Origin: Deltaproteobacteria bacterium
GTDB lineage: Bacteria; Desulfobacterota; Desulfarculia; JACQYL01
DNA: 53,954 nt
NCBI GenBank assembly: GCA_016208165.1
Contig: JACQYL010000048.1
Coordinates: 1 to 53,954, forward strand
Reading direction: 5' to 3'
Shown here piece by piece: positions 1 through 39,718 of the stretch (positions are counted from its first letter, which is position 1; each line of letters starts with the position of its first letter). The translations under genes and the position numbers were made by a program. The notes below the pieces were generated by a model that was given only the letters and a program-made list of their open reading frames with translations, searched no databases and was not told the origin of the DNA.

Positions 1-15
1 CATATCCACAGTCCC

Positions 16-798
16 CTATTCCGCGTTTCGAGCCTGAGCGTTCAGCGCCGCTCCGATGGCGCCTATGATTTGGGAATCCACATCGAGTTTCACGGTCTCG
101 AGTCCGAGTTTTTCTTCCAGCGCTTTGATGACGGCCTTATTCTTGGCCACGCCTCCGGTGGCGACGATCTCCTTTTCCGCACCCAGCCTGAGCACCATGG
201 TGGCCACGCTCGTTCCAATCGAGTAGACGATGCCCGCGGCAATATCCGCGGGCTCGGCCCCTTCGTTCACGTGGGTGACGATCTCGCTCTCACCGAACAC
301 GGCGCACTGGGCGCTTATATGGGCTCTGCCTCCGGCCGCGAGCGAAACCGGGCCGAGTTCTTCCACTTTCAGCTCGAGGGCCTGAGCGGCCAGGTCCAGA
401 AAGAACCCCGTCCCGGACGCGCACCGGTCGTTGGTCCGGTATTCCCGCGCTTTCCCGTTCTTCCCGTCCACGCTGATGATGGTCGTGCTCAGGCCTCCGA
501 TATCCACCACGGTCCGAACCGCCGGAACGCTCCAATAGGCCCCACGAGCCAGACAGCGGATGGAGCTTTCGACGCTGTGCGGAAACGAAATATACTTTTC
601 TCCCCAGCCCGTACCTCCGAAATGCGGGATTTCCTCTAAATCGAGACCGGCTTGGCCCAGAACGCTCAGGACCGATCTTCGCGCGGCGTCGGCGAGTTTT
701 CCGTCGTTGAGCGTGACGTCAAAAGCGGCCAAACGGTCGCCCTTTAGGATTACGGTTTTGGTGGCAATGGCTCCAATGTCACAACCCAGACTGATCAT
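16..798 (-). CDS. 2-hydroxyacyl-CoA dehydratase activase (HgdC/BadG-type ATPase)
   Basis: A 260-residue ASKHA-fold ATPase that would donate single low-potential electrons, at the cost of ATP, to the dehydratase/reductase subunits encoded upstream. Seen: an N-terminal phosphate-1 loop (GCDIGAIATKTV, residues 5-16), an internal DIGG loop (99-102), the adenosine-loop GGVAKNKAV (215-223), and two cysteines, C126 (RCASGTGFF) and C165 (SAQCAVFGE). In this family the two cysteines from each monomer hold one [4Fe-4S] cluster at the dimer interface. The length fits the homodimeric HgdC/FldI activases; class I benzoyl-CoA reductases instead need two different ATPase subunits, one of them longer. It follows the 464-residue subunit gene by 101 bp and appears to be the last gene of the operon within the window. 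GGAG lies 9 nt before the ATG. Confidence 0.93.
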   Translation of the reverse strand: MISLGCDIGAIATKTVILKGDRLAAFDVTLNDGKLADAARRSVLSVLGQAGLDLEEIPHFGGTGWGEKYISFPHSVESSIRCLARGAYWSVPAVRTVVDIGGLSTTIISVDGKNGKAREYRTNDRCASGTGFFLDLAAQALELKVEELGPVSLAAGGRAHISAQCAVFGESEIVTHVNEGAEPADIAAGIVYSIGTSVATMVLRLGAEKEIVATGGVAKNKAVIKALEEKLGLETVKLDVDSQIIGAIGAALNAQARNAE

Positions 799-899
799 GC
801 ATGTTCTCCGGAAATGATATCATGGTGTTTGTTCTCTACCTCCGGCAGACCTCCCTATCACCGAAAGAAAACGCAAGGCCTGCATAAAAAGGAAGCGCA

Positions 900-2294
900 T
901 CAAAGCGTGGTGAAGAACTCGTTCATAATACGTCTCAGTTCGGCCGGAGGAGTAAACCTCTTGTCGAACATATCCATTTCGAATCGCAACGTGGGCACGC
1001 CTGTTTCTTCTTTGACTTTGTCGCTCAGAAGCTTGTTGAGAGCCCAGAAATGCTTACACGCCATGTGGCCGCCCAGGATCAGGGCGTCCGCCTTAAAGTT
1101 CTTGACCACATGGACGAAATCGTTGATCCATATGTCGGAAAAGCCCATGGTCTGCCGGCCCATGGGCATCTGCATGGTTCTCCAGGCGAGTCCCTCGAGT
1201 ATGGTGTCCATGCTGGTGGTGTCCACCAGCCCCACGTCCGGAGGGAAATACGTGAGCGTATCCGTGATGTAGCTCACGCCGTGTTCTTCCTCCAACCAGT
1301 CGAAAAAGGGCAGGTCGTAGCATTCCCAGGTGTATCCATAGGTGACCCTGCGTTCCTTCTTGCCTTCCGGAATCACGCCTTCTCCCCGGTCCGCCCTGGC
1401 TTTGACGTCCTCGTACAGCGCCTTGAAATAGGCCGCTCCCATGGGCGTTCCGATCTGCGTCATGAAAATGGTGTCCGCCGGGCGGTGCCACCCCGTATCC
1501 GGGCAAGGCCTCCTCTTTTTCAGCTCCTGGGTTTTCAAGATGTATTCCATGGCCTGGTTGCCGTAGCCGATGTACTCCCGCAGCTTGTCTTCGTCCAATG
1601 TGTTCCCGGTCAGCTTCTCGAGTTGTTCGATCATCCGCTTGATTTCCCCGAGCATGTACTTCTGGCCGCGTTCGTTACGATAGTACGGCGTCTCGACGAC
1701 CACCAGAGGGGTGTCGAACTTGTGGGACGTCCATTCGTAAAGCCGGTTGCTCGCGTCGCAGGGTGTAGCCGTCTTGATGAGGAGGTCCGGGTGGGGAACC
1801 ACGCCCATCAGGAGAAAGCCGGCCGTACCTTTTTGGGTCGAGCAAAGATGGTCCGGATAGCCTTCGGCTTCGATTCGGTCCACGCCCTCTTCCGCGCCGT
1901 CCGTGTAGAGAGCCGAGGTAAGGCCGCAGACCACTTCGTAGCAGATGGGCACCACGTCCAGGGCCAGCATGATTTCCACGCTGATGGGGAAGTAGTGGTA
2001 GCAGGCCGGCTTTCCCTCGTCCAGCCGGGCATTGGCCCAGTCCACATATTTCATGATATTGTCCACGAAGGCGAACGCGCTGCCGCGGTTCTTGTCCTTG
2101 AGAATCGTGTTTACCAGATCCGTCTGAACCTTGTCGAAATTCGTCTGGTAGTCCTCGGGCAGAATCTCGCGAACGACCTCTTTCCCGCCCCAGTCGTCCA
2201 ATGAGGTGAGGCCTTCCTGGCCCAGAATGAACTTCGCCAGCTCTCCGGTGAGCTTCCAAGTATCGAATATGGTCCTGTCTTTTCTGTCGGTCAT
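900..2294 (-). CDS. 2-hydroxyacyl-CoA dehydratase / BcrB-like subunit (464 aa)
   Basis: Larger of two paralogous Fe-S subunits forming the catalytic component (HgdA/FldB/BcrB class). Such subunits carry a [4Fe-4S] cluster and accept one electron from the activase to start a ketyl-radical dehydration, or a Birch-type reduction in the benzoyl-CoA reductase branch. Seen: family length (464; HgdA about 477, BcrB about 440), and a cysteine set in the first domain (C98, C118, C123, C151 in DHLCSTQKG, C179). Sequence alone does not show whether the substrate is a 2-hydroxyacyl-CoA or an aromatic acyl-CoA. Only 5 bp separate its start from the stop of the 371-residue subunit gene upstream, so the two are surely cotranscribed. 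Confidence 0.88.
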   Translation of the reverse strand: MTDRKDRTIFDTWKLTGELAKFILGQEGLTSLDDWGGKEVVREILPEDYQTNFDKVQTDLVNTILKDKNRGSAFAFVDNIMKYVDWANARLDEGKPACYHYFPISVEIMLALDVVPICYEVVCGLTSALYTDGAEEGVDRIEAEGYPDHLCSTQKGTAGFLLMGVVPHPDLLIKTATPCDASNRLYEWTSHKFDTPLVVVETPYYRNERGQKYMLGEIKRMIEQLEKLTGNTLDEDKLREYIGYGNQAMEYILKTQELKKRRPCPDTGWHRPADTIFMTQIGTPMGAAYFKALYEDVKARADRGEGVIPEGKKERRVTYGYTWECYDLPFFDWLEEEHGVSYITDTLTYFPPDVGLVDTTSMDTILEGLAWRTMQMPMGRQTMGFSDIWINDFVHVVKNFKADALILGGHMACKHFWALNKLLSDKVKEETGVPTLRFEMDMFDKRFTPPAELRRIMNEFFTTL

Positions 2295-2299
2295 CTTGA

Positions 2300-3415
2300 T
2301 TACCTCCTGGCGATTCTTTCCAAAAAGGCCTCGATCCTGGTTTTCAGCCTCCCGACGTCCGACAGCATGTATTCCCTCTCCAGAATCAGGGTCGGTATGC
2401 CTTTGGGCTCGAGATCCTCGGCCAGCATGGTGCTTTCCACCGCATGGTTGTCACAGAAGACGATTTTCTGAAGCAGGAGACCGTCCACGTCGGCTCCCCG
2501 GGCCAGCTCTTCGGTGAACCGCTCCCTGCTCTTGAACTCGCCCAGCATGCGCGGGCACGGGTTGTGGTAATAATATCGGTCGGCAAGGGCTTTCACGGGG
2601 TCTCCGTCCTCCGCCACCGGGTTCATGAAGTGCCGGGATCCGAAACACAAGGAATCCGTGACCACCATTCCTCCCAAACCTTCGACAATACCGATCAGGG
2701 CCGCGTCGTCCAGGGCCGAGCCTCCGATCATGAGCCGGGCCTTGTAGTCCGTAACGCCCGCCCGTTGCCGAACTTCATCGAGAGCCTCGCGAAGCAGTTC
2801 GTTGAACTTCTCCCTGGGCATGATGCCTGCCGCGAGCAGAATCTTCAGCGCGTCCGTGGGAACGGCTTCGGCTTTTCTGAGTTCGTACAGTTCGTCGATG
2901 AGGCGTCTGCTTTCATTGTAGACTCTGATGGAGTTCGTCAGATCCGCGCTGGAACATCGCACTCCGAAATTGTGCGTCAGATGTTCCTTGAAATTATGGA
3001 TCTCTTCTTCGTACCACTCCAACCCGGCATTGTTCAGAGAATGGGGGACGGTCACCATGTACAGGTAGTCGGTGCGCAGGTGTTTTTCCCAGATTTCGTA
3101 CAGGCGTCGGATCTGTTCGCAGCCGTTGAGCAGGCAGAACCCGTCGAGGAAGTCGTACTCGCCGGAAAGGCCGGTTTGCAGCAGGCATCTCGAGAACGTG
3201 CAGTTGAAACGGTGCATGTAGATGTCGGCCAATCCGGTTTCCGTGGCGCCCCTGGCCTCCATCCGGTACGGGAACAGGCCGGCGGCGTGGATGATCTCTT
3301 CCGGCACATAGCCGCATGCGAAACCCACAACCCGGCCTCCATCCTCTTTCCACTCTCTGAGGTACGGATTTTCCTTTCGATCGGGCAACCTCATCAGTTC
3401 ATCCAATGCGTTCAT
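2300..3415 (-). CDS. 2-hydroxyacyl-CoA dehydratase / BcrC-like subunit (371 aa)
   Basis: Smaller catalytic subunit (HgdB/FldC/BcrC class). The start is set at the ATG giving MNALDELMRL because GGAGG lies 5 nt before it; the frame stays open further upstream but only as a shadow of the ligase gene. Seen: the family signature GYVPEEIIHAAGLFPYRM (residues 35-52), then C72 and C77 (NCTFSRCL) and C94/C99 in a region matching the Fe-S-binding part of this family. The length (371) fits HgdB (about 379) and BcrC (about 380). It is the partner of the 464-residue subunit directly downstream. The ligase gene ends 35 bp upstream. Confidence 0.9.
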   Translation of the reverse strand: MNALDELMRLPDRKENPYLREWKEDGGRVVGFACGYVPEEIIHAAGLFPYRMEARGATETGLADIYMHRFNCTFSRCLLQTGLSGEYDFLDGFCLLNGCEQIRRLYEIWEKHLRTDYLYMVTVPHSLNNAGLEWYEEEIHNFKEHLTHNFGVRCSSADLTNSIRVYNESRRLIDELYELRKAEAVPTDALKILLAAGIMPREKFNELLREALDEVRQRAGVTDYKARLMIGGSALDDAALIGIVEGLGGMVVTDSLCFGSRHFMNPVAEDGDPVKALADRYYYHNPCPRMLGEFKSRERFTEELARGADVDGLLLQKIVFCDNHAVESTMLAEDLEPKGIPTLILEREYMLSDVGRLKTRIEAFLERIARR

Positions 3416-3450
3416 GCCTGCCTCCATTCTGAATTCTTCACGAATCCGTA

Positions 3451-5142
3451 TTATTTCCCCTGATCTTGTTGTTTGCGAATTTCCTCGTCCCGCAATTGCT
3501 TTTTGAACAGCTTTTCCGTCACGGTCAGAGGCAATGCCTCCCGGAACTCCACTTCTCCGGGCGCCGCGTAGGCCGCCAGCTTTTCTTTGCAGTAGGCGAT
3601 CAGGTCCTGGGCCGTGATCCCGCCTTGCCGATCCTTTTTGAGAACCACGAAAGCCTTCACCCGCTCGCTGCCCGGCCGTTCGGGATCGGGAACTCCGATG
3701 CACACGGCCGAAGCCACGTCCGGATGTTCGAAAAGCACCTCATCCACCGTGGTGGAATAGACCTTGTGCCCGGACACGTTGATCATGTCCTTGTTCCTAT
3801 CCACCAGGAAGAAATAGCCGTCTTCATCCATGCGGCACAGGTCTCCCGTCGCAAGCCAGCCGTCCTTCAGACCCAAGCCGGGTTCGGGCCAGTATCCTTT
3901 CATCAGTTGCGGACCGCGGACATACAGTTCGCCCACTTCTCCGATGGGCGCGTCTAATCCGGTCACCGGATCCACTACCCTCACGTCCGTATCCACCACG
4001 GGCACACCGATGGACCCGGTCTTTTCAAAGGGCATGAACCCCGTCACCTTGGCGAAACTCGACAGGTTGAAGTGCGTCAGGGGCCCTGTCTCCGTGAGGC
4101 CGTAAGCCTCGGTGATGGGCATACCCGTAACCTTTTTGAACTTCCTGGTCACCTCCGGGGGCAGCGGCGCCGCGCCGGATGCAAACGTGGTGTTCGTGCG
4201 GCCGATGTTCTTCTCGATGAGCCGCATGTATTGGGTGGGCACCAACGGCGCCATAAAAGGCCGGTTCTTTTTCAAGTACTGAACAATGGCGTCCGTGTCT
4301 CTCGGATCGGGCAGCAGGATCATCTGGAGGCCCCAATGAACGGCTGCCCGCACGGCCCAATGTCCATACGCGTGAAACGTGGGAATGCCGATCAGGATGG
4401 ATGACTTGCCTTTGATGCCTTCCTGAAGGGGCCCCATCACCCAGGGCAGGGACTGAACCGTATTGGACACCAGGTTGAAGTGAGTGAGCATAACGCCTTT
4501 GGGTTTTCCGGTGGCTCCACCGGTGAACACCAATGATGCCAGATCCTCGATGGGATCGATGTCCACCCGGGGCGGTTCAGGGTCGGATGCTGCAATGAGA
4601 TCTCGCATCGAGCAGGCGCCTGAAGTTTCCACAAGGTCAGGTTCGTTCGAGGAAAAATCATGCAAGTTCGTCGTGATGAGCGTTTTCAGTTTTGTTTCGG
4701 GCCGGACCGATTTCACCAGATCCAGGGAACGGTCCAGGCAGATGATGGTTTCCGCTTCCGACTCCCCGATTTCGTACACAAGGTCTCTCTGCTTGTGCAA
4801 CAGGCTGCACGGCACGTGCACGCCTCCGGTCTTCTGTATGGCATAGTCGCTGATAACGAATTGGGGAGAGGTGGGAAGAATGGTGGCCACCCTGTGGCCT
4901 TTTTCCACTCCGAGGCTTTTGAGGGCTGATGCAAACCGGTCCACGAGCTGCTTCAGCTCTCGGTAAGTCAGCGTTCTTCCTAAATACAGACACGCCGGGC
5001 GCCCGGGAAAGCGCCGGGCGGATTCATCCAGATACTGGAACAAGGGAACCTTCGGATACGGCGCCATGGTCCGGGCGATATCGAAAGGACCCAACTTGTA
5101 GCTCTTGGTCCATGGTTTCTCGCTATAAACGCTCATGTTCAT
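3451..5142 (-). CDS. AMP-forming acyl-CoA synthetase (carboxylic acid:CoA ligase)
   Basis: ANL-superfamily ligase of 563 residues: acid + ATP + CoA to acyl-CoA + AMP + PPi. Seen: P-loop TGGATGKPKG (residues 207-216), EAYGLTETGP, the GWLATGD block, the hinge VDRNKDMINVSGHKVY, and a C-terminal lysine region (TVTEKLFKKQLR) where the adenylation lysine is expected. The start at 5142 makes a 4-bp ATGA overlap with the upstream AOR gene; an ATG two codons later is possible. Position between an aldehyde oxidoreductase and the dehydratase subunits suggests it activates the acid made by the AOR. The substrate cannot be read from sequence. Confidence 0.9.
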   Translation of the reverse strand: MNMSVYSEKPWTKSYKLGPFDIARTMAPYPKVPLFQYLDESARRFPGRPACLYLGRTLTYRELKQLVDRFASALKSLGVEKGHRVATILPTSPQFVISDYAIQKTGGVHVPCSLLHKQRDLVYEIGESEAETIICLDRSLDLVKSVRPETKLKTLITTNLHDFSSNEPDLVETSGACSMRDLIAASDPEPPRVDIDPIEDLASLVFTGGATGKPKGVMLTHFNLVSNTVQSLPWVMGPLQEGIKGKSSILIGIPTFHAYGHWAVRAAVHWGLQMILLPDPRDTDAIVQYLKKNRPFMAPLVPTQYMRLIEKNIGRTNTTFASGAAPLPPEVTRKFKKVTGMPITEAYGLTETGPLTHFNLSSFAKVTGFMPFEKTGSIGVPVVDTDVRVVDPVTGLDAPIGEVGELYVRGPQLMKGYWPEPGLGLKDGWLATGDLCRMDEDGYFFLVDRNKDMINVSGHKVYSTTVDEVLFEHPDVASAVCIGVPDPERPGSERVKAFVVLKKDRQGGITAQDLIAYCKEKLAAYAAPGEVEFREALPLTVTEKLFKKQLRDEEIRKQQDQGK

Positions 5143-7004
5143 CCGTCCATCCCGAGGGTGTACGTCAGACCTCCCAGACCCAGCTCCTCCAACTTTTCTT
5201 TGCTGGGCTTTCCCGTGGTCTTGTCCCATCCCCTCGCCTCATAGTAGGCGTCCAAAAGCGGGGCCAGATCCACCACGAGACCCGCGGCCGGTCCATCGGA
5301 CAGAGGCTCTTTCAGCAATCGCTCGGGCAAAGTATCGTCCGCCCTCGTGCAGCCTTCCCGCACGTTGAAACACCGGGCCAGGTTGAAAATCCGTTCCCCG
5401 GCTTGCCTGAAATCCGCTACTTCGAACTCCCATCCCGTAGCACCGGCAATCACGGGCGCCACGTCCTCGGCCATGAGGGCCATGCCCATGAACTTGCATG
5501 CACCCACGGAGTCGAACACCGTCAAGGCGTCCTCGAGACCCTTGACCACTTTGGCTTCGGCCGGATTTTCCACCAGGGGATCCTCGATGGTGCTTTCTTC
5601 CACTATGAGAAAAGGAATATCCAGGAAGGTGGGCCCTTGGACGTAGGCGGTGATGTGATCGCCGCCCCTGTTGGCCGTGGCAAAACCCAGACCCGTGATT
5701 TTGGTGGCCCGGCAATCGTAGGCCGGCAGTTCCAAACCCTTGACCTGCATGGCGAAGGTTTGGCTGCCCTTGCCCAGTTTTGCGGACACTTTCCTCGTAC
5801 CTTCAGCCAGAAGATCGCCGATGCCTTCTCTTTTGGCGATCTTGTGCACCAACCGGGTCATGGCGTCGGCGTCGCCGAACGTGAGCGCCTCTCCGTCCAT
5901 ATCTTCTTTAGTGAGTATGCCTTTTTCAAAGCATTCCATGGCAAAGGCTATGGTGCTGCCCGTGGAGATGGTGTCCAAACCGTAGTCGTTGCACAACAGA
6001 TGCGCAAAGGTGATGGCCTCGAGGTCACTAACGTCGCACATGGGTCCGAATGCTCCCACACTCTCGTATTCGGGACCCTCGCCTTTGCAGGCGAATCTCC
6101 CGGAAGACACCTCCGACAGCCGCCCGCAGGCTATTGGGCAACCGAAACACGCGGAGCGTCCTTTCAGGATCTTCTCGTTGATGGCAGGGCCGTTGATGTT
6201 GTCGGTGTAGGAGCAGAAGCCGGACTGCCAGTTACGCGTGGGGAGACCGCCTTTCACGTTCACCAGATCCAGCACCATGTCGGTTCCGTAGACCTCGAGG
6301 GTCATTTTCAGCAGACTCTCGTTCACGAAATTGGCGGCGGCTTTGGCCGCTTCGTCAAACGCGTCCTTGTCGGCCACCCGGATCTTCTGATTTCCGCCCA
6401 CAGCCACGGCCTTAAGGTTTTTCGAGCCCATCACCGCTCCCAGACCGCACCGGCCCAGAGCACGGTGTACATCGTTCATAATCGCGGCGTACCGCACGAG
6501 CTTCTCTCCGGCAACGCCAATGCAAGAAACATTGAACGGTTTTCCCAGTTCGTTCTTCAGTACGGCGGTGGTCTCGGCAACCCCCTTGCCCCAAAGTTGG
6601 ACCCCGTCCTTCAGTTCCGCATGTCCGTCATCAATAACCAGATAAACCGGTCCGGGAGCCGCACCCTCGAAGATGATTCCATCGTAGCCGCTCTTCTTGA
6701 GATCGAGGCCCCATCGCCCGCCGGAATTGGCCGAGCCCCAGAATCCGCTGAGAGGCGATTTGGCCACCGCGCTGAATCTGCCCGAACTGGGCGAAATGGT
6801 GCCGGTCAGCGGTCCGGTCATGTAGATCAGTTTGTTTCCGGGTCCCAACGGGTCCACCCCTGCAGCCACCTCATCGAACAAGTATTTCGAGGCGAGTCCG
6901 CTGCCGCCCAGAAACATTCGGGCGTCCTCGGGGGGCAACGGTTCGTCCGAAACGGCCCCGTCCGAAAGGTTGACTCTGAGGATCTTTCCCATAAATCCGT
7001 TCAT
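5139..7004 (-). CDS. aldehyde:ferredoxin oxidoreductase family tungstoenzyme
   Basis: A 621-residue AOR-family protein, expected to hold a tungsten bis-pyranopterin and one [4Fe-4S] cluster and to couple aldehyde oxidation to ferredoxin reduction. Seen: GGSGLASKYLFDEV near the N-terminus; AKSPLSGFWG followed by SGGRWGLDLKKSGYDGI (81-110), the pterin-binding part; GRCGLGAVMGSKNLKAV (184-200); cluster cysteines C286, C289, C293 (ACFGCPIACGR) and C503 (SVGACKFMG), matching the C-x2-C-x3-C plus distant Cys pattern. AGGTGA precedes the ATG. A BamB-like role (the AOR-family subunit of class II benzoyl-CoA reductase) is a weaker alternative: no BamDEFGHI-type genes are present in the window. Confidence 0.9.
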   Translation of the reverse strand: MNGFMGKILRVNLSDGAVSDEPLPPEDARMFLGGSGLASKYLFDEVAAGVDPLGPGNKLIYMTGPLTGTISPSSGRFSAVAKSPLSGFWGSANSGGRWGLDLKKSGYDGIIFEGAAPGPVYLVIDDGHAELKDGVQLWGKGVAETTAVLKNELGKPFNVSCIGVAGEKLVRYAAIMNDVHRALGRCGLGAVMGSKNLKAVAVGGNQKIRVADKDAFDEAAKAAANFVNESLLKMTLEVYGTDMVLDLVNVKGGLPTRNWQSGFCSYTDNINGPAINEKILKGRSACFGCPIACGRLSEVSSGRFACKGEGPEYESVGAFGPMCDVSDLEAITFAHLLCNDYGLDTISTGSTIAFAMECFEKGILTKEDMDGEALTFGDADAMTRLVHKIAKREGIGDLLAEGTRKVSAKLGKGSQTFAMQVKGLELPAYDCRATKITGLGFATANRGGDHITAYVQGPTFLDIPFLIVEESTIEDPLVENPAEAKVVKGLEDALTVFDSVGACKFMGMALMAEDVAPVIAGATGWEFEVADFRQAGERIFNLARCFNVREGCTRADDTLPERLLKEPLSDGPAAGLVVDLAPLLDAYYEARGWDKTTGKPSKEKLEELGLGGLTYTLGMDG

Positions 7005-7223
7005 TTCCCATCACCTTTGCCGATCGGTTGTAAACGTTGAGTGACGCTACACGTCCGCGCCGCCTTGGCGCTACGCGGAGCCTTCTTTCCTCGCGCATCC
7101 ATCTCAAGCCGCACCCGTTCCGGGGGCCGGACCATGCCTCAGCCCTTCCATGGAACTCAGGGTTGAAATCCGCCCCTGTTCAGGCTCGATCGCCCCCCTG
7201 CTGAACGGCTCCCGACGGACTCA

Positions 7224-7250
7224 AGACGACCGCTTCTCCGGTCGTCTTTT
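7224..7250 (+). terminator. GC-rich hairpin with short T-run between SCP2 and AOR genes
   Basis: A perfect 9-bp stem (AGACGACCG / CGGTCGTCT) with a 6-nt loop, followed by TTTT on the plus strand. It lies in the 288-bp gap between the SCP2 gene stop and the AOR start, both on the minus strand, where it has no T-run. It may act as a transcript-stability or attenuating hairpin inside the operon, or stop antisense transcription. No gene is seen in the rest of this gap. Confidence 0.45.
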
Positions 7251-7292
7251 GCAGAGCGCGGCGAAAGAGTTCATGAGTGGTCCGGGCTACGC

Positions 7293-7661
7293 CTAGTCAC
7301 AGATGATAATCGCCTTGGCCATCTTCAGCAGCTTAAGCAAATTCCCTCGGGCCTTGATTTTGCCCGTGAGCAAGGCCTTGACCGGACCGATCTCGCCTGC
7401 AGTCACCTCGGATAGTTCGTCGAAACTTCCGGCCAGGTAGGCCGAGGGCTTATCCACGGCGCCGTCCCGGATACTCAGGGCGCCTTTGTCGAAAATCACC
7501 GTGGACATCACGTCCGCGCTCGTCTCTCTCACGACCAACGTTCCGCGGATCTTCCTGACGGTATCCCACACCTTGGCGTTCCGGATGTTCTGATCGATCA
7601 GGGATTTCAGCGTCCAGCCCAGACCGTTCAGGTCCTCTCCTATGACTTGGACTTCCGTCAT
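7293..7661 (-). CDS. SCP2 sterol-carrier-like domain protein (122 aa)
   Basis: Single-domain SCP2 protein. Seen: a mid-protein block with IFDKGALSIRDG and the C-terminal SCP2 signature GPVKALLTGKIKARGNLLK, followed by a short helix (LLKMAKAII). SCP2 folds bind fatty acyl-CoA or other hydrophobic ligands in a tunnel, so a cytoplasmic role in carrying or shielding a hydrophobic CoA-ester is plausible, but no reaction is implied. It lies 25 bp downstream of the ferredoxin-like gene and 288 bp upstream of the AOR. A second SCP2 protein sits two genes away; the two are diverged, not recent duplicates. Confidence 0.82.
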   Translation of the reverse strand: MTEVQVIGEDLNGLGWTLKSLIDQNIRNAKVWDTVRKIRGTLVVRETSADVMSTVIFDKGALSIRDGAVDKPSAYLAGSFDELSEVTAGEIGPVKALLTGKIKARGNLLKLLKMAKAIIICD

Positions 7662-7686
7662 GGCATTCTCTCCAAGCGCTGCTTTT

Positions 7687-8997
7687 CTAAAGCTCGTGGA
7701 TGTATCCTTTTCCCAACACCTTTACTCCGGAACCCATGACACTCAGGAAAGCCGATCTCAACGCGTCACTCATGAGCGCCTTTTTGACGGGCGAAAGTTT
7801 GAAAAATGCACCGACAATATAGCGCAGAACATCTTGCGTGATGCTTTCCGGATTGTCGAATATTTGGTTCTGGAGGGTGCCTCGCTCGAGGCATTGCAGA
7901 ATGACACGATGGAACGTGGTTTCCGGGTGAATGACCCTCGCCTCCCTTTTAACGAGTTTGAGGGCTCCCGTGCTGCACTTCAAGGCGCACACCCCGCAAC
8001 CGAGGCAGATGGATTCGTCGATAACCGCTTTTGATTTCTTTTTTCCATTGGTATCGGCGGATTCCACCGGGGCCATTTCGATGGCGTTCACATGGCACGC
8101 TTTCAAGCATTGTTTGCAGCCTGCGCACTTTTCCTCATCCACCTGGGCAATAAAACTCGAGGTCACGGTGGTCGAGGTGAGGCCGTGTTTGTTAAGCCCC
8201 GCCATGATGCCGCAGCAACAGCCGCAACAATGGCAGACGAAGGTGATCCTCTTCTGCACATTGTCCGCCGAGAAGATCAGTCCCAGTTCCCTGGATCGGG
8301 CGAAAATCTCCTGCATTTCCGTCTTTGAAATGCGGCGGCACAGGCCGCGCCTCACCATGTAATCCGCCGCCCAGCCAAAGGTGGTGCACGTGTCCAAGGG
8401 CGCGTCGCATTGCCTTTCGCCTGCATGTTCCTGTTTATGCCGGCAGGAGCAGATGCCTACCGCGTATTGGTCCGTCTCATCGATGAGGGACGCCACGCGC
8501 TCGTAGTCCAGGATTTCCACGTGGTCACCAAGTGCTTCTTCGTGAGGCACGGTGCGGGCTATGGACGTCTTCGAGCCATCGGAGAAGTTCGCCCTGTAGG
8601 GCGCGCCTTCTTCCATGTATTGATGGAAGAGGGGACCGATATGGCTGAAATCCACGTTTCCGTCCGTCCTCATCATGGTGAACTCGAAGATTCCCACGAA
8701 CAGAGGGGAGGGCATGTACCGGGTCTCGTCATCGAGATACGCATCCATCACGAGACCCTTTTCACACAGGTTTTCCAAGATCGTCCGAAGGCGTGACGGT
8801 TCCACTTTGGTGATGTTCGCTATCCGGTCGAGATTCGAGAGCAGATAGGGCATCTTGACTACGACTTCGGCCTCCTCGGCCGAGTAAAGCTCCTTGATGA
8901 GCTGGTAGAAGGTTTCATTCCAGGGCGCTCTGACGTGCAGGTTGTCTATCTTCCTGCCGAGCCGCCGATACAGATCCTTGCCAACGAGATGCCCCAT
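7687..8997 (-). CDS. 4Fe-4S dicluster protein with N-terminal helix-turn-helix-like domain
   Basis: A 436-residue protein. The start was placed at MGHLVGKDLY because GGAGGGAGGGG lies just before it. Residues about 1-100 look like a winged-helix-type module (helical, with ILENLCEKGLV as in MarR/ArsR wings). The middle carries a cysteine-rich stretch (GICSCRHKQEHAG, CHCCGCCCGIMAG), and the C-terminal third has two consecutive [4Fe-4S] ferredoxin motifs (CAGCKQCLKACHVNAI and CLGCGVCALKCSTGAL). It is probably an electron carrier linking the AOR or dehydrogenase to the radical dehydratase; the N-terminal module may mediate protein contact rather than DNA binding. It lies between two SCP2 genes on the same strand. 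Confidence 0.8.
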   Translation of the reverse strand: MGHLVGKDLYRRLGRKIDNLHVRAPWNETFYQLIKELYSAEEAEVVVKMPYLLSNLDRIANITKVEPSRLRTILENLCEKGLVMDAYLDDETRYMPSPLFVGIFEFTMMRTDGNVDFSHIGPLFHQYMEEGAPYRANFSDGSKTSIARTVPHEEALGDHVEILDYERVASLIDETDQYAVGICSCRHKQEHAGERQCDAPLDTCTTFGWAADYMVRRGLCRRISKTEMQEIFARSRELGLIFSADNVQKRITFVCHCCGCCCGIMAGLNKHGLTSTTVTSSFIAQVDEEKCAGCKQCLKACHVNAIEMAPVESADTNGKKKSKAVIDESICLGCGVCALKCSTGALKLVKREARVIHPETTFHRVILQCLERGTLQNQIFDNPESITQDVLRYIVGAFFKLSPVKKALMSDALRSAFLSVMGSGVKVLGKGYIHEL

Positions 8998-9123
8998 GAA
9001 TCCCCTCCCTCCATCCGCCAGGCCCGTGGCGTTGCGGGCGCCGTCCGGCACAGCCGGCTGAGGTTACCACCGGCCGGCCATGACAGAGATCGTGCAAACG
9101 CTCGGCGAGCTTGAGCAGAATGT

Positions 9124-9546
9124 CTATTCACCCAGATACGTATTCTCGAAGGAGCTGATGGAATTGGCTACGGCTCGAATGAATTTGGCGTTCCGCATGA
9201 TTTTGGACATGTCTCCTTTCAGTTTGAAAAGGCCTTTCACCACGCCCTCGATGAAGTCTTTTTCACCCTTTACCACGGGCTTGAAGTTCGCATACGATCC
9301 GATGACATAGAAGCCCGGATTCTTGGTTGAAGGGTCATCGAGCATGACGGCTTCCGAACACTTGCCGGCCGACGCCTCCAAGTAGACATAATGCGTCTTG
9401 TCGAGCCCTCCTCCGGGCTGCACCTCGAAAACGAAGTTCCCGTTAAAACCCACGCCCCAGTTTTTCCCGGTCTCCTGAACCGCAGGGTCGTTGTTGAGCG
9501 CGTCCTTCCAGGCCTCGCACCATTCTTGAGACGGATACAACGGCAT
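9124..9546 (-). CDS. SCP2-like domain protein (140 aa)
   Basis: Second SCP2-like protein of the operon. Seen: an N-terminal helix (YPSQEWCEAWKDALN), a beta-rich core with GVGFNGNFVFEVQPGG and YVYLEASAGKCSEA, then a C-terminal segment (DFIEGVVKGLFKLKGDMSK) matching the SCP2 ligand-tunnel helix. As in its family, a hydrophobic or acyl-CoA ligand is expected; no catalytic residues are evident. It is 86 bp downstream of the acyl-CoA dehydrogenase gene and about 126 bp upstream of the Fe-S protein, all on the minus strand. Confidence 0.75.
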   Translation of the reverse strand: MPLYPSQEWCEAWKDALNNDPAVQETGKNWGVGFNGNFVFEVQPGGGLDKTHYVYLEASAGKCSEAVMLDDPSTKNPGFYVIGSYANFKPVVKGEKDFIEGVVKGLFKLKGDMSKIMRNAKFIRAVANSISSFENTYLGE

Positions 9547-9632
9547 GATCGTTTCCTCCTGTTCGTTCTTGGTTAAAGCGAAATCTTTCCATCCGGCTCG
9601 GCGCCGGCGAAAGATTTCCTGAATGCCCCGGG

Positions 9633-10892
9633 CTAAAGCGTCTCCAGATCAAACCAGTAGCGGGCATTTTCGAGGGTTTTAAGACCCTTTCCGCCCATCC
9701 AGATGCCGATGACTTTCTGATCGCGCCAGTGTTTCTCGATATCAAACTCTCTCGAGTAACCGTACGAACCCATATAATCCATCACCCGGCTGCAGACCCG
9801 TTCGACCGCATTGTTGGCATGCAGGGCCAGGCCCCGGCTTTTGAGCAGAAATCGCTCGTCCCAGGGCTGCCAGCCGTAGATATCCGGGTTGTCCATCTCT
9901 CTGGCATAGGCCCACATCCACGAGGAGGTGGACTCGATGCTCATGGCCACATCGCACAGCATCTCCGCCACCATGCTATGTTCTTTCAGCGGCTTTCCTC
10001 CGATCACCCGCTCGGACGTCCATTTCTTGATGATCTCATACGCGGCTTTCATGATCCCCACGCACATGGCTGCCGAACCCACATTTCCAAGAGAAATGGC
10101 CCGCTTCCAGTATTTGAGGTCATCACCGGGCCCGTGAGCTCTGTACCTTTTTGGCACACGCACGTTCTCGAACCAGATGTCCGTGTTCATGTCCGCGTTC
10201 ATCCCGCATTTCTGATACGGACCGCCCACGGAAACTCCTTCCGCGTCCGCCGGAACCATGATCAGGGCAAAGTCGTTGGGATCCGTAGATCCTCTTTTCG
10301 TCGTGCAGACCACGGAGAAGAGATCTCCGGTCTTGCCCGAATTGGACGGCCACAACTTGTGACCGTTGATCACCCACTCGTCGCCGTCAAGGGTTGCCGT
10401 GGTCTGGATCGTCTTTCCACGCATGCGGCCGATGTTCTCGATATCGGCTCCACTCGAGGGCTCGGTCATGGCGTGGCAACCCATGTACAACTCGTCCCCA
10501 CAGAACTTCTTTCCGAACTCGACGGACAACTCCATGTTGCGGTGAGGCTTCAACAGGATGGGCATCAATCCCCACACCGAGCAGATGCACGCGGTGCAGA
10601 AACCCGAGTCTATGCGCGCCAACTCCTCGCATATCACGGTGACCAGGGTCACCGGCTCGGGCATGTCCGTGCCCCCGGCTTCCGCCGGGAAAAAGGCGGC
10701 GTTGAGTCCCAGATCCACCAGCACTTCTTTGAGCATCGGTTCGATCAGTTTGTGCTCCCTCCAATCCTCGTCCACCTGCTGCCTGATGGGAACGTACCTC
10801 TCCTCTCCCCATCGTCTAAGGACTTTCCCCAAATCGGAAACAAAATCCGACACCCATTCCTTCGGACGAACGAAATCATCGATGGTCGGCAC
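9633..10892 (-). CDS. acyl-CoA dehydrogenase family flavoprotein
   Basis: A 419-residue acyl-CoA dehydrogenase (FAD; alpha,beta-dehydrogenation of an acyl-CoA). Seen: the CHAMTEPSSGADI block and WVINGHKLWPSNSG (FAD/substrate-binding beta domain), GVSVGGPYQKCGMNADMNTD, and a C-terminal helical domain ending in GSYGYSREFDIEKHWRD, equivalent to the GG.GY..E....RD signature. The usual GG is SY, and the catalytic-base position is not certain by eye. It is the first enzyme gene of the series, 59 bp after the receiver gene. Its context (SCP2, AOR, ligase, dehydratase) suggests it acts on the same acyl-CoA as the ligase. Confidence 0.9.
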   Translation of the reverse strand: MPTIDDFVRPKEWVSDFVSDLGKVLRRWGEERYVPIRQQVDEDWREHKLIEPMLKEVLVDLGLNAAFFPAEAGGTDMPEPVTLVTVICEELARIDSGFCTACICSVWGLMPILLKPHRNMELSVEFGKKFCGDELYMGCHAMTEPSSGADIENIGRMRGKTIQTTATLDGDEWVINGHKLWPSNSGKTGDLFSVVCTTKRGSTDPNDFALIMVPADAEGVSVGGPYQKCGMNADMNTDIWFENVRVPKRYRAHGPGDDLKYWKRAISLGNVGSAAMCVGIMKAAYEIIKKWTSERVIGGKPLKEHSMVAEMLCDVAMSIESTSSWMWAYAREMDNPDIYGWQPWDERFLLKSRGLALHANNAVERVCSRVMDYMGSYGYSREFDIEKHWRDQKVIGIWMGGKGLKTLENARYWFDLETL

Positions 10893-10951: not shown

Positions 10952-11332
10952 TCAGAACTTCGCACGATTCGTGGAAACGGATTCCACGAGGACGCGGATC
11001 TCCTCCAAGGATGTCGAATCTTTGACTATAAAAAAGTCCGCTCCATACTCGCGGGCGGCTTCCCTGTATTCGGGCAAATCGTAACTGGTCAGTATGATGA
11101 CGGTTGTTCGGGAATGGTTCTGTTTGATCTTTCCGGTCAGCTCGAGACCGTTGCCTCCCGGCAGGCGAATGTCCATAAACACGAGGTCCGGAAGCGGGGC
11201 CTCGATCCGTTCGAGAGCCTCTTTCGCATCTCCCGCCTCGGCGACGTTCATTTCCGGGAACCGTTCGGATAACATGGTCCGTAACGACTGACGAAAGGAA
11301 AGATTGTCCTCCACGATCAACGTGGTGAACAT
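10952..11332 (-). CDS. stand-alone response-regulator receiver protein
   Basis: A 126-residue CheY-like receiver without an output domain. Seen: acidic pocket (IVEDN), phosphoacceptor D54 in LVFMDIRLPGGNG, T in IILTSYD, and K in FFIVKDST. The start at MFTTLIVEDN has GGGAG 8 nt upstream. It heads the minus-strand catabolic operon (59 bp to the dehydrogenase) and is divergent from a NarL-family regulator. With no DNA-binding domain it may act as a phosphate sink or partner for the nearby PAS kinase; this is inference from position. Confidence 0.88.
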   Translation of the reverse strand: MFTTLIVEDNLSFRQSLRTMLSERFPEMNVAEAGDAKEALERIEAPLPDLVFMDIRLPGGNGLELTGKIKQNHSRTTVIILTSYDLPEYREAAREYGADFFIVKDSTSLEEIRVLVESVSTNRAKF

Positions 11333-11456
11333 GGCGTTTCTCCCATCGAGAAGAAACCGGGGGTTATGTGGCAGGCTCGGGCATTGAGCGGGAGTTCCAT
11401 CGCTCCGGGGGAAGTCCCCTTTTTCGCCTTGCACCCGTTACGTGTATGGTGCACAC

Positions 11457-11485
11457 TTTACCGGACGCGCGCTTACTAGTATAGT
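11457..11485 (+). promoter_or_regulatory. predicted sigma-70-type promoter of the NarL-family gene
   Basis: TTTACC (4 of 6 to TTGACA) and TATAGT (5 of 6 to TATAAT) are separated by exactly 17 nt, about 90 nt upstream of the ATG at 11577. It lies in the 244-bp gap between two divergent response-regulator genes. Predicted by eye only. Confidence 0.45.
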
Positions 11486-11576
11486 GGGGGAACTTCGTAT
11501 TTATTTAGAGGAAACACCGTAGTTTTTCGCGGTTTTCTATGGCGGCCGCCCCAATACTGCTAAAAGGTCCGCTCTC

Positions 11577-12233
11577 ATGAAGCATGCCTACCGAATCGTC
11601 ATAGCCGAAGACACTACGATTTTGAGGGAAGGACTCCAAGCCTTACTGTCATCGCATCCGGACTTTGAAGTAGTCGGTGAAGCGGAAGACGGCCTCGATG
11701 CGGTCCGAAAAGTCGAAGAACTGCATCCGGATCTGATCCTTCTGGATCTGTCCATGCCCAGAATGCACGGGATCGAGGCCATCAAAGAGATTCGGAGCCG
11801 GTGTCCCGAAACCCGGATTCTGGTGCTCACGGTGCATAAGAACGAAGAGTACATACTCGCCACCCTCGATGCCGGCACCGGCGGATACCTGCTCAAGGAC
11901 GCCACGCGGAATGAACTGGAAATGGCCGTTAGAACCGTGCTGAGCGGAAAACGCTATCTCAGTCCGGGGGTTTCCGACCTGGTCATCGACGGATATCTCG
12001 AGGGGAAAAAGACACTGAAAACAGAAACATCCTGGGATACCCTGACCGCGAGGGAACGAGAAATTCTGAAACTCGTGGCGGAAGGTTACAAGAACAGGGA
12101 GATCGCAGACGTTCTGTGCATCAGCATCAAAACAGCCGAAAAACACCGAGCCAACCTGATGAAAAAGCTAGACCTCCACAGCATTTCGGCGGTGACGTCC
12201 TTCGCCATCGAGAAAGGCCTCATCCGGAAGTAG
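11577..12233 (+). CDS. NarL/FixJ-family response regulator (LuxR-type HTH)
   Basis: A 218-residue two-domain regulator. Receiver: acidic pair (IAEDT), phosphoacceptor D57 in LILLDLSMPRMHG, T in LVLTVHK, K in GYLLKDATR. Output: LuxR helix-turn-helix (LTAREREILKLVAEGYKNRE, then IADVLCISIKTAEKHRANLM). It probably controls the divergent catabolic operon and/or the transporter. It is convergent with the histidine kinase gene at 12389-13996, whose HisKA_3 type is the usual partner of NarL regulators, so they are likely cognate. Confidence 0.95.
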   Translation: MKHAYRIVIAEDTTILREGLQALLSSHPDFEVVGEAEDGLDAVRKVEELHPDLILLDLSMPRMHGIEAIKEIRSRCPETRILVLTVHKNEEYILATLDAGTGGYLLKDATRNELEMAVRTVLSGKRYLSPGVSDLVIDGYLEGKKTLKTETSWDTLTAREREILKLVAEGYKNREIADVLCISIKTAEKHRANLMKKLDLHSISAVTSFAIEKGLIRK

Positions 12234-12333
12234 AGCGGTTCCCTTGTTTGAATTGCCGCATGAGGGAGGTTTGTCATTCACACCGCGGAGATCGCGGAAT
12301 GACTACTGCCCAAGAGGTTGTGGGAGGGGTTTT

Positions 12334-12361
12334 GGGGAACTCTTTTGCAAAAGGGTTCCCC
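12334..12361. terminator. GGGGAAC...GTTCCCC hairpin between convergent genes
   Basis: A 14-nt arm on each side (GGGGAACTCTTTTG / CAAAAGGGTTCCCC; one G-T pair) lies between the convergent regulator and kinase genes. No T-run follows on either strand. The preceding GGGAGGGGTTTT recurs near 30558 and 36838, so this may be a dispersed intergenic element that also serves as a two-way terminator. Confidence 0.5.
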
Positions 12362-12388
12362 AGGTGCTCCATGAACCACTGAAACATT

Positions 12389-13996
12389 TCATACCCCGGG
12401 CCATGCCGCCCGGATGACGGTTCCCTCGGGCGCGCCGGTCTCGATGGAAAACGATCCGCCGGACAGCTCCGTCCGTTCCCTCATGCTAGCCAGGCCGAAT
12501 CCCCTCGTGCGGCTGTCCGAAGTCATCACGCTCTCCAGGTCAAACCCGGTTCCATTGTCCTCGATCACCAGGTCGATGGTATCCTTCTCCATACCCAGGT
12601 AGAGGCGCACCCGGCTCGCCCGGCTGTGTTTGGCGGCATTGTTCAACGCTTCCTGCAAGACTCTGTATATGACCGTTTTCAACGCTTCCGGTACGTCACC
12701 CTCTTCCAGCCGGATCTCCCGTTCAATGCTTATGCCGGAATAGATTCTCTGAAATTCCCTGCAGAACCAGGCGATGGTGGCCAGGATTCCGAGATCGTCC
12801 AGGGTGGACGGCCGCAAGTCCATGGAAATCCGGCGCCCTTCATCAATGGCCCGCTGAATCACGGGTATAAGTGACTTGAGCAGTTCAATATTAGGTGAAG
12901 AAGCGGTCTTTTGCATGTTCGCGAGAGTGTTCTCCATGCTGAACTTGATGGCGGTCAACGCCTGTCCGATACCGTCGTGAAGCTCCTGCGCCACACGCCT
13001 GCGCTCGTTTTCCTGGGCGGTGAGCAGTTGCGTGGAGAGTATCCGAAGTTCTTTCTCGGATTCGCGCAAGGCCTCCTCGGCTCGCTTGCGTTGAGTGATG
13101 TCCATTCCCATGCCCACGAGATAGGTGTTGCCGTCCAGGCGTATGCGAACACCCGAGAACACGAAGGGGGTTTTCTTACCGTCTTTGGATCTCATGTGGG
13201 CTTCCACAAAAGCGCTGCCGCGAACGAACACCTCTCGAATTCTGCCGGCCACTCTCTGCCGGTCCTCCCCTTCGAAAAAATCCAGGGAGGACATGGTCGA
13301 AAGATCGCCGGCGCCGTAACCGGTGACTTCTTCAAAGTTCTTGTTCCATTTCAGGAACCTTCCATTTTCGTCGAATACATAGAAAGCGCCCGGCAGACTG
13401 TTAATGACGGACTCCGAGAAATGCTTTTCCGCGAGGAGACTTTCCTCGACCTGTTTCCGCTCGGCGATTTCCCGTTTGAGTTGTTCGTTGGTTTTTTGCA
13501 GCTCCGCCGTGCGATCCGTCACCATTTCCTCGAGATGATGGCGATGCCTCCTCAGTTCATCTTCAGCCCGCTTGCGCTCGGTTACGTCCCGGGCGATGCC
13601 TCGAAAACCCACCGGTTTTCCTTCCGGATCCCTGGTCAGGGACACGGAAAGCTCGACCTCTCTTGCCTCGCCGTCTTTCCGAATGATTTCCCACGCATAC
13701 GCTTTGGTCGGCCTTCCGGTGGTATACACGCCGTTGAACGTGCGATAAACGGCTTCGGCGTCTTTCTCGACCGTGAATTTCCTGTAGTTCATACCCATCA
13801 GTTCTTCGTGGGCGTATCCCCAGATGTTACAGATGGAATCACTGAAAAAGGTCAGATTACCGGCCAGGTCCACCTCATAATATCCATCCTCGATGCCCTC
13901 GATAATGACGCGGTATTTTTCTTCCGATTCCCTCAGAGCCTCTTCAAGGTCTCTGACCTTTTGATTGAGTTGCTCGCAGGTGCGCTCATCCATCAT
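12389..13996 (-). CDS. PAS-PAS sensor histidine kinase (HisKA_3 / NarX-like output)
   Basis: A 535-residue cytoplasmic kinase with no membrane segments. Start at MMDERTCEQL with GGAG about 9 nt upstream. Layout: short coiled coil (1-25), PAS (about 27-140, ending IARDVTERKRAE), coiled linker (145-190), second PAS (about 192-305, ending MGMDITQRKRAEE), dimerisation/phosphoacceptor box ERRRVAQELHDGIGQALTA with H340, and an HATPase domain with N box (EALNNAAKHSRA), DNGTGFD and GLASMRERTELSGG. It probably senses a soluble or redox signal and phosphorylates the NarL-type regulator encoded convergently. Confidence 0.92.
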   Translation of the reverse strand: MMDERTCEQLNQKVRDLEEALRESEEKYRVIIEGIEDGYYEVDLAGNLTFFSDSICNIWGYAHEELMGMNYRKFTVEKDAEAVYRTFNGVYTTGRPTKAYAWEIIRKDGEAREVELSVSLTRDPEGKPVGFRGIARDVTERKRAEDELRRHRHHLEEMVTDRTAELQKTNEQLKREIAERKQVEESLLAEKHFSESVINSLPGAFYVFDENGRFLKWNKNFEEVTGYGAGDLSTMSSLDFFEGEDRQRVAGRIREVFVRGSAFVEAHMRSKDGKKTPFVFSGVRIRLDGNTYLVGMGMDITQRKRAEEALRESEKELRILSTQLLTAQENERRRVAQELHDGIGQALTAIKFSMENTLANMQKTASSPNIELLKSLIPVIQRAIDEGRRISMDLRPSTLDDLGILATIAWFCREFQRIYSGISIEREIRLEEGDVPEALKTVIYRVLQEALNNAAKHSRASRVRLYLGMEKDTIDLVIEDNGTGFDLESVMTSDSRTRGFGLASMRERTELSGGSFSIETGAPEGTVIRAAWPGV

Positions 13997-14219
13997 CTTT
14001 GACGTCTCCGGAAAAAGACGGGAAATCGATTCGTACTCGCCTTCAGGGTCAGGCCGCCCCCCTAAACGGTCGCAACGGCCGTGCGCCCGAAGCAAACTCG
14101 AAAGACCTGGGAAGCGAGTTCGAACGGTCCGTCTCAGGCGAACTTAAAGAATTCCCCGCGCTCGGCGATCCCACACACACCTCTATCTACCCGCCCCCCG
14201 AAAGGGCCGATTCGAGGCA

Positions 14220-16990: not shown

Positions 16991-17386
16991 TCGATGCGTC
17001 AAATTCCATTTGACAGCCGAAAGCAGAGGGTGATACATTTTTTATTAATAGAATAATTTCCTATTCTTCTTTGTTTCATTTTTCTCAGTTCTATTTCTTC
17101 CTCCTTATTTCTCTTTCCAGAGTTTCTGTTTCTTCTTGCTTATTCCTCGACACCCACCTGGGTGCGGAACCGAGACGGTCGGGTTGACAAGACATACGTT
17201 AACGGGCGGAAAAACGCGGGTCGGACGCCCTACCCCCATCCCCGAAGGGACAGCGAGGGACCCGAGGCAGGTCGAGTCGCGTGAATGGCGGGGAAGCCGG
17301 AACCCTCCGGCGACAGGCTGCAGGGGTAGCGACCGCTTACGTTGGTTCGAGTTCGTCGTCCTCAACAGAAACCAGCAGGAGGGAGC

Positions 17387-39247: not shown

Positions 39248-39718
39248 ATGATCTCATTAACAGTGAACGGAAAAAGATATCAGGTAGACGTGAGCCCGGA
39301 TACGCCGCTTCTCTGGGTGATCCGGGAAAGCCTCGGACTTACGGGAACCAAATTCGGTTGCGGGATGGCCCAGTGCGGCGCCTGTACCGTACTTCTGGAT
39401 GGAGAGGCGGTTCGCTCCTGCGTTGCGCCGGTGTCGCGGGCCATCGGCAGAGAGGTGACCACCATCGAGGGTCTCTCGCCCGATCTGAGTCATCCATTGC
39501 AGCAGGCCTGGATTGCCGAAGATGTGCCGCAGTGCGGATACTGCCAATCGGGACAACTGATGAGTGCGGCCGTGCTCTTGCGCGAAAAACCACAGCCTAC
39601 GGATGAAGACATCGATCAGGCGATGGCGGGAAACCTCTGCCGATGTGGCACCTACCCGCGCATCCGAAAGGCGATCCACCGTGCGGCCGGCATGATCGCG
39701 AAGGGAGGCGCCAAATGA
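39248..39718 (+). CDS. [2Fe-2S] small subunit of a molybdenum hydroxylase (isoquinoline oxidoreductase alpha type)
   Basis: A 156-residue xanthine-oxidase-family small subunit with two [2Fe-2S] clusters: the plant-ferredoxin type (C38, C43, C46, C58) and the helical type (C96, C99, C131, C133). It passes electrons from the Mo cofactor of the large subunit to an external acceptor. It overlaps the large-subunit gene by 4 bp. There is no FAD-subunit gene, as in IorAB-type enzymes, so electrons probably go to the cytochrome c encoded third. Confidence 0.95.

Follow-up and report, generated by a model that had tools for sequence, protein, structure and literature searches.

The 2-hydroxyacyl-coenzyme A (CoA) dehydratases of the Had, Hgd and Fld types have one activator species, and few enzymes with an [8Fe-9S] double-cubane cluster have a known reaction. 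In the Bzd-type class I benzoyl-CoA reductase, according to PMC11971306, the double cubane is held by Cys36, Cys73, Cys100, Cys263, Cys293 and Cys327 of BzdN and an aqua [4Fe-4S] cluster by Cys95, Cys128 and Cys380 of BzdO, whose Glu65 and His131 lie next to the water. The operon described here lies at 16-10892 of contig JACQYL010000048.1 (53,954 nt, the window; Deltaproteobacteria bacterium, GCA_016208165.1) and carries a pair of HGD-D subunits with activases, downstream of genes for an aldehyde:ferredoxin oxidoreductase (AOR) and an acyl-CoA ligase. Judged by homology, it is fairly secure that the HGD-D pair and two ATPases have the architecture of a class I benzoyl-CoA reductase, in a separate lineage and a new operon context. 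We lean, by a small degree, towards reading the operon as a class I benzoyl-CoA-reductase-type acyl-CoA reductase encoded together with enzymes that would make its substrate.

The window is the entire contig C48 of a 5.69-Mb, 142-contig genome (G000), and the contig end falls inside the operon. All nine genes reported by the earlier note are present on the minus strand, with Pfam assignments exceeding gathering scores (in transcription order ACAD, SCP2, Fer4 protein, SCP2, AFOR_N/C, AMP-binding, HGD-D, HGD-D, BcrAD_BadFG):

9633-10892, minus strand: ACAD-like flavoprotein, 419 aa, first gene (Pfam ACAD; Met, in IWMGG, at the catalytic Glu column)
9124-9546, minus strand: SCP2 protein a, 140 aa (Pfam SCP2, 24.4 bits, gathering score 21.3; orthologues in four other operons)
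7687 to about 8997, minus strand: Fe-S protein with two Fer4 motifs and a Cys-rich stretch (Pfam; found here and in related locus L012 only; start listed at 9051, likelier about 8997)
7293-7661, minus strand: SCP2 protein b, 122 aa (Pfam SCP2, 30.4 bits; orthologues in four other operons)
7005-7292, no strand: 288-nt gap between SCP2b and AOR, with a 10-bp perfect hairpin at 7223-7248
5139-7004, minus strand: tungsten-type AOR, 621 aa (AFOR_N and AFOR_C; nearest solved AORs 9mqx and 1aor)
3451-5142, minus strand: AMP-forming acyl-CoA ligase, 563 aa, FadD/4CL-like (Pfam AMP-binding and homology; first listed start codon too far upstream, likely ATG at 5142)
2300-3415, minus strand: HGD-D small subunit, 371 aa, predicted [8Fe-9S] double-cubane subunit (C34, C72, C99, C257, C287, C321)
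900-2294, minus strand: HGD-D large subunit, 464 aa, predicted open-site [4Fe-4S] subunit (C151, C179, C413; E120)
16-798, minus strand: activase 1, 260 aa, BcrAD_BadFG ATPase (TIGR00241, 203 bits, cut-off 125.4; solved relatives HadI 4eht and MbdQ 9gai)
1-3, minus strand: ATG of activase 2, the gene running off the contig (remainder on contig C12 of G000, locus L092)

The first three bases of the window are the ATG of a next gene, so the operon extends past position 16. In two related loci (L011 and L012) the next genes encode a second, different activase and then a CooC/MinD-like ATPase. Contig C12 of G000 (5027 bp) carries at its end activase 2 from residue 123 to the C-terminus, 78% identical to the second activase of these relatives; after it come genes for a 264-aa CooC-like ATPase and for a member of the MoaD family (50.8 bits, cut-off 49.5). 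From this gene order C12 and C48 are probably neighbours, with about 360 nt missing between them since the activase fragment starts only at residue 123. The earlier note had counted one activase where there are two, and to its nine genes the CooC-like ATPase and, in G000, MoaD must be added; the whole conserved set comprises about twelve genes.

An alignment that included segments of the solved proteins shows Cys at each of the six BzdN positions of the small subunit, and these are kept in 20 of 20 small subunits from core and wider homologues; BzdN and DCCP have the complete set, HadC four and MbdN three. C151, C179, C413 and E120 of the large subunit are kept in 22/22 sequences, in an alignment that held only residues 78-292 of BzdO, the Glu65 and Cys380 columns resting on HadB and MbdO, and that omitted L024, L027, L028 and further HGD open reading frames (ORFs) in L037, L038 and L040. 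Both activases keep two Cys. Two HGD-D genes and two different activases are found in all six close operons (split over two contigs in G000), and the presence of two activases rather than one makes the architecture benzoyl-CoA reductase-like rather than dehydratase-like. By homology, the ATP-driven radical Fe-S chemistry on acyl-CoA proposed in the earlier note is supported.

AlphaFold models (predicted local distance difference test scores of 88.3 for the large and 90.1 for the small subunit) match HadB (Z 36.7, 2.6 Å, 379 residues aligned) and BzdO (Z 35.6, 2.7 Å, 389 aligned) in the case of the large subunit. For the small subunit BzdN (Z 46.3, 1.9 Å, 367 aligned) and DCCP (45.3, 2.1 Å, 363) are nearly tied, followed by HadC (43.9, 2.1 Å, 367) and MbdN (38.6, 2.6 Å, 362). 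In a small-subunit tree, core and wider homologues form a 19-row clade (support 98/96) that excludes BzdN, HadC, MbdN and DCCP, the four references used; BcrC, HgdB, FldC and the naphthalene-pathway enzyme lay outside this comparison. A tree of this kind had been proposed in the earlier note, and the nesting in a characterised dehydratase clade that would have told against the note is not seen among the references included. Loci with a small subunit cut by the contig end (L036) or without a complete one (L024, L099, L100), the duplicates L027 and L028 (the genes of L041 and L042) and a truncated pair on contig C94 were omitted from the tree, and the long branches REF_MbdN, G0_C7, REF_BzdN and G0_C142 are of unsure placement. 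NCBIfam scores (bits/cut-off) are 184/453.8 for BzdN, 155/421 for BcrC, 56/487 for BcrB, 25/449 for BzdO, 55/750 for HadB, 143/700 for HadC and, for the small subunit against DCCP NF040772, 183/350.

Six genomes form a close set with large subunits 46-100% identical: G000, G142 (L011), G438 (L012), G069 (L029), G367 (L030) and G333 (L031). The order AOR-ligase-HGD small-HGD large-activase 1-activase 2-CooC is kept in 6/6, over two contigs in G000; because the same order recurs in genomes of several families, it is not due to chance. The contig of L011 begins within its AOR gene. L031 carries EtfBA between its AOR and its ligase and, ahead of the small subunit, a third gene resembling SCP2a. 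ACAD, SCP2a and SCP2b lie upstream in all five close operons whose contig reaches far enough. For most cassette genes the relatives rank about alike in their identity to the window, as expected if the cassette was inherited together. Six peptide patterns from the large subunit, run against the genomes of 84,980 species in a scan that detects close relatives only, found two (80% and 70% identical). Across the phylum, 13 of 395 genomes have a large-subunit match at E <= 1e-60, as do three among 60 relatives, G000 included. At E <= 1e-100 the matches number 2/24 in the family of G069, 1/5 in the family of G142 and 3/194 in the order of G333, low counts that indicate a sporadic distribution. A tblastn search of plasmids gave six records, the best place in each having <25% identity.

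Among distant homologues (31-44%), the small-large pair is kept, mostly with two activases and often with CooC. An AOR-ligase pair adjoining the reductase was found in none of the distant loci fetched; partial cases are L036, with a 32% AOR homologue ~6 kb away, and L102, with two ligase homologues of 27-30%. No description of the same gene set or order was found in the literature searched, mostly papers outside subscription and some in partial text, in line with the earlier note's statement that the operon does not match the classic clusters. The available part of PMC13416013, on a benzene degrader, makes no mention of aldehyde, SCP2 or activase.

Intergenic distances in transcription order are 86, 72, 25, 288, -4, 35, 5 and 101 nt, so the short gaps and overlaps of the earlier note hold for most junctions and fail for SCP2b to AOR, where three relatives (L012, L029 and L031) have 13, 24 and 13 nt. 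The 288-nt sequence is single-copy in G000, ruling out a repeated element as its origin; with its hairpin, it is a possible internal regulatory site.

The AOR scores 516 bits against the solved AOR 9mqx and 217 against BamB, and identity as BamB was rejected on these values. The Fe-S Cys, Glu and His columns of Pyrococcus AOR are kept in 5/5 sequences aligned, and its Asp338 column is Asn in all five. The AOR named in the earlier note therefore has these site residues intact. The adjoining ligase resembles long-chain and feruloyl/coumarate enzymes more closely than it does benzoate-CoA ligase. Its adjacency agrees with the earlier note's idea that it activates the acid made by the AOR; which way the AOR runs, and which acid is involved, are inferences. 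MoaD beside the AOR operon fits a supply of pterin cofactor. CooC itself carries a CxC motif; among the CooC-like proteins, 5/5 aligned show a deviant Walker motif and a C-[FY]-C stretch.

In ACAD proteins a Glu column, located here against structure 4u83, holds the catalytic base. This column is Met in four of the five operons and Glu in L031, whose ACAD was taken from an incomplete 5' end. Relatives 35-36% identical in L038 and L041, near the same kind of reductase, have Leu at the column and share an insertion with the window ACAD. L038 (in G083) and L041 (in G398) are similar reductase clusters with the related ACAD and a CooC-like ATPase; a 265-aa CdhC (acetyl-CoA synthase beta)-like protein adjoins that of L041, and L038 has a similar-looking ORF and a Fer4 protein.

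In the reading we favour, the SCP2 proteins would hold a lipophilic aldehyde or acid, the tungsten AOR would oxidise the aldehyde and pass two electrons to ferredoxin, and the ligase would activate the resulting acid to an acyl-CoA. Activases 1 and 2 would bridge one 4Fe-4S cluster and, by ATP hydrolysis, push single low-potential electrons through the small subunit (predicted [8Fe-9S]) to the open-site [4Fe-4S] of the large subunit, where the acyl-CoA would be reduced through radical chemistry. Metal-cluster and pterin maturation would fall to the CooC-like ATPase and MoaD, and the same CoA ester would be the substrate of the ACAD-like flavoprotein, either ahead of the reduction or following it. 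Each aldehyde oxidised would yield the two electrons that each reduction consumes, so the pathway could be redox-neutral and paid for by ATP. The sequences themselves establish the make-up of the subunits, the cluster ligands, the gene order and its conservation, and the site residues of the AOR; the direction of reaction, the path of the electrons, the substrate and the parts played by CooC, SCP2 and ACAD go beyond them. A more specific version, a new system leading from aldehyde to reduced acyl-CoA, is offered tentatively, with the odds against it: an SCP2-held lipophilic aldehyde or acid would become a CoA ester through the tungsten AOR and the ligase, and the two released electrons, lifted by a two-ATPase double-cubane complex, would reduce that same ester. 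It would include a redox-neutral, ATP-paid route, a non-benzoate substrate, one cassette spread between Desulfobacterota, a dedicated CooC-type maturase and an ACAD without the usual base.

In favour of the general reading, AOR, ligase, ACAD and SCP2 stay together as one conserved block, and their identities are similar. Several observations weigh on the other side. The core of the distant relatives without an adjacent AOR-ligase pair confines the link between the two halves to the close clade. The 288-nt gap, which could hold an internal promoter, leaves a single transcript unproven. The column of BzdO His131 is Ser182 in the large subunit, the model of which matches HadB about as well as BzdO, and no benzoyl-CoA reductase equivalog cut-off of NCBIfam is reached. 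The ferredoxin-like gene occurs in only two of five operons (window and L012), and one of the three without it, L031, has EtfBA instead; with this absence, the route from AOR through the operon's own ferredoxin to the activase, as drawn in the earlier note, is not a general property.

What the substrate might be bears on a narrower form of the same reading, a doubtful one in our estimate, in which the complex would be a class I reductase that dearomatises the aryl-CoA of an alkylated or polycyclic aromatic acid: AOR would oxidise an aryl aldehyde, the ligase would make the aryl-CoA, the reductase would dearomatise it and the ACAD would take the cyclic product. BzdN as the nearest solved small subunit agrees with this, as does the best NCBIfam match of the ACAD, cyclohexane-1-carbonyl-CoA dehydrogenase (below cut-off). 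BamA, the hydrolase that marks the benzoyl-CoA pathway, exceeds its family cut-off in three of ten genomes searched (G000, on contig C51, G438 and G398), and hence in two of the six cassette carriers, the window's own genome and G438; it does not in carriers G142, G069 (98% complete), G367 and G333 (99%), from which it follows that the cassette does not need the benzoyl-CoA pathway. A plain benzoyl-CoA pathway in all carriers was rejected on this search. The ligase, moreover, is not of benzoate type, and the cassette is without hydratase, hydrolase or ring-cleavage genes. The substrate is probably not ordinary benzoate; an aromatic one is a possibility. The SCP2 proteins, the ligase type and the neighbours of locus L101 suggest that it is lipophilic: at L101:3843-19899 the same reductase has as neighbours two CrtO/CrtI-like FAD proteins along with SCP2 proteins, in a genome (G488) that holds the large subunit in four copies, and L034 has similar FAD proteins.

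A new type of 2-hydroxyacyl-CoA dehydratase, removing water from a lipophilic 2-hydroxyacyl-CoA, would account for membership of the Pfam HGD-D family, for HadB as the best (by a tie) fit to the large-subunit model and for a non-His residue at the BzdO His131 column, as in HadB. It is unlikely given two different activases rather than one, a small subunit with six double-cubane Cys of which HadC has four, and the HadB and HadC equivalog scores, far below cut-off; as first choice it was rejected on the Cys sets and hidden Markov model scores. Very improbable is an ATP-driven complex that does not act on a CoA ester and feeds very low-potential electrons to an AOR running backwards, from acids to aldehydes. 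The aldehyde/acid couple lies near the ferredoxin potential according to PMC13328260, so an ATP-driven donor could help, and SCP2 carriers suggest a lipid-like compound; the large subunit nevertheless retains a full cluster and Glu site like substrate-binding subunits, the core persists in distant relatives that have no AOR-ligase pair next to it, and a ligase adjoining the AOR fits oxidation better.

HGD-D genes occur in other settings. At L037:8921-17494 (G075), HGD-D genes have between them those for the large subunit of a methylmalonyl-CoA-mutase-type enzyme and for a B12-binding subunit, an arrangement recalling the ketone degradation clusters of sulfate reducers. In Desulfosarcina cetonica, PMC7888143 reports HGD-annotated subunits, which may or may not be of this clade, as more abundant on ketones. 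G000 itself has further loci. Contig C116 (L064:822-2978) carries a 718-aa HGD-D-activase fusion, then a second activase, an Fe-S protein and AOR-like ORFs in two pieces; HGD-D and activase domains are likewise joined in the plasmalogen synthase PlsA and in glycerol ester reductase. On contig C94 (L067) the surroundings of the truncated HGD-D pair include ACADs and a partial match to BamA (434.6 bits, below cut-off), and on contig C7 (L066:2533-9144) a HadB-like pair (276 bits, NF052455) lies beside ORFs resembling Rnf subunits by eye.

Beside the operon, window positions 10952-14095 encode a receiver protein, a NarL-type response regulator and a PAS histidine kinase; a kinase and a 63% identical regulator likewise stand upstream in L012, and the regulator is of TetR type in L011 and of sigma-54 type in L031. 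Further along, a 1848-aa ORF at 17342-22888 lies mostly within raised G+C (62-67% vs about 57%), and at 39248-41865 a 2Fe-2S-type protein of 156 aa and an ORF of 740 aa resemble, judged by eye, the two subunits of a molybdenum hydroxylase.

With this operon, the ligand set of the double cubane is found in a conserved reductase lineage of its own, in genomes that often have no BamA above cut-off, a pattern that suggests ATP-driven, Birch-type radical reduction of other, probably lipophilic, acyl-CoAs. The operon would present a whole candidate pathway in one piece, from aldehyde oxidation through activation and reduction to maturation, and raises two questions: the function of a CooC-type ATPase next to a double-cubane enzyme, and that of an ACAD lacking its usual base in the same setting.

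Set against described systems, the AOR resembles class I tungsten oxidoreductases (WORs) and AORs (Pyrococcus AOR 1aor; 9mqx) in its site Cys, Glu and His columns and differs from Pyrococcus AOR at the Asp338 column; an HGD/activase neighbourhood is not mentioned for these enzymes in the portion of PMC13328260 available. The 2-hydroxyisocaproyl-CoA dehydratase (HadBC, HadI; 3o3m, 4eht) shares the fold and the three cluster Cys and Glu of the large subunit, whereas HadC has only four of the six small-subunit Cys. DCCP and its reductase (6eno, 7yyl) have the six Cys in common with the operon's small subunit, and an ATP-driven activator, but the solved complex entries hold one HGD-type protein and one activator chain where the operon encodes two HGD proteins and two activases. 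The 3-methylbenzoyl-CoA reductase (MbdONPQ; 9g87, 9gai) has the same four-subunit architecture, although MbdN is without three of the six double-cubane Cys and is the weaker match. The Bzd-type class I benzoyl-CoA reductase (BzdNOPQ, 8s02; PMC11971306) is alike in its two HGD-D subunits and two ATPases, in the six [8Fe-9S] Cys of the small subunit and in the three [4Fe-4S] Cys of the large subunit. It is unlike the operon's proteins, which form a separate clade, have Ser for His131, pass no equivalog cut-off and, with BamA below cut-off in four of six carriers, are tied to AOR, ligase, SCP2, ACAD and CooC.

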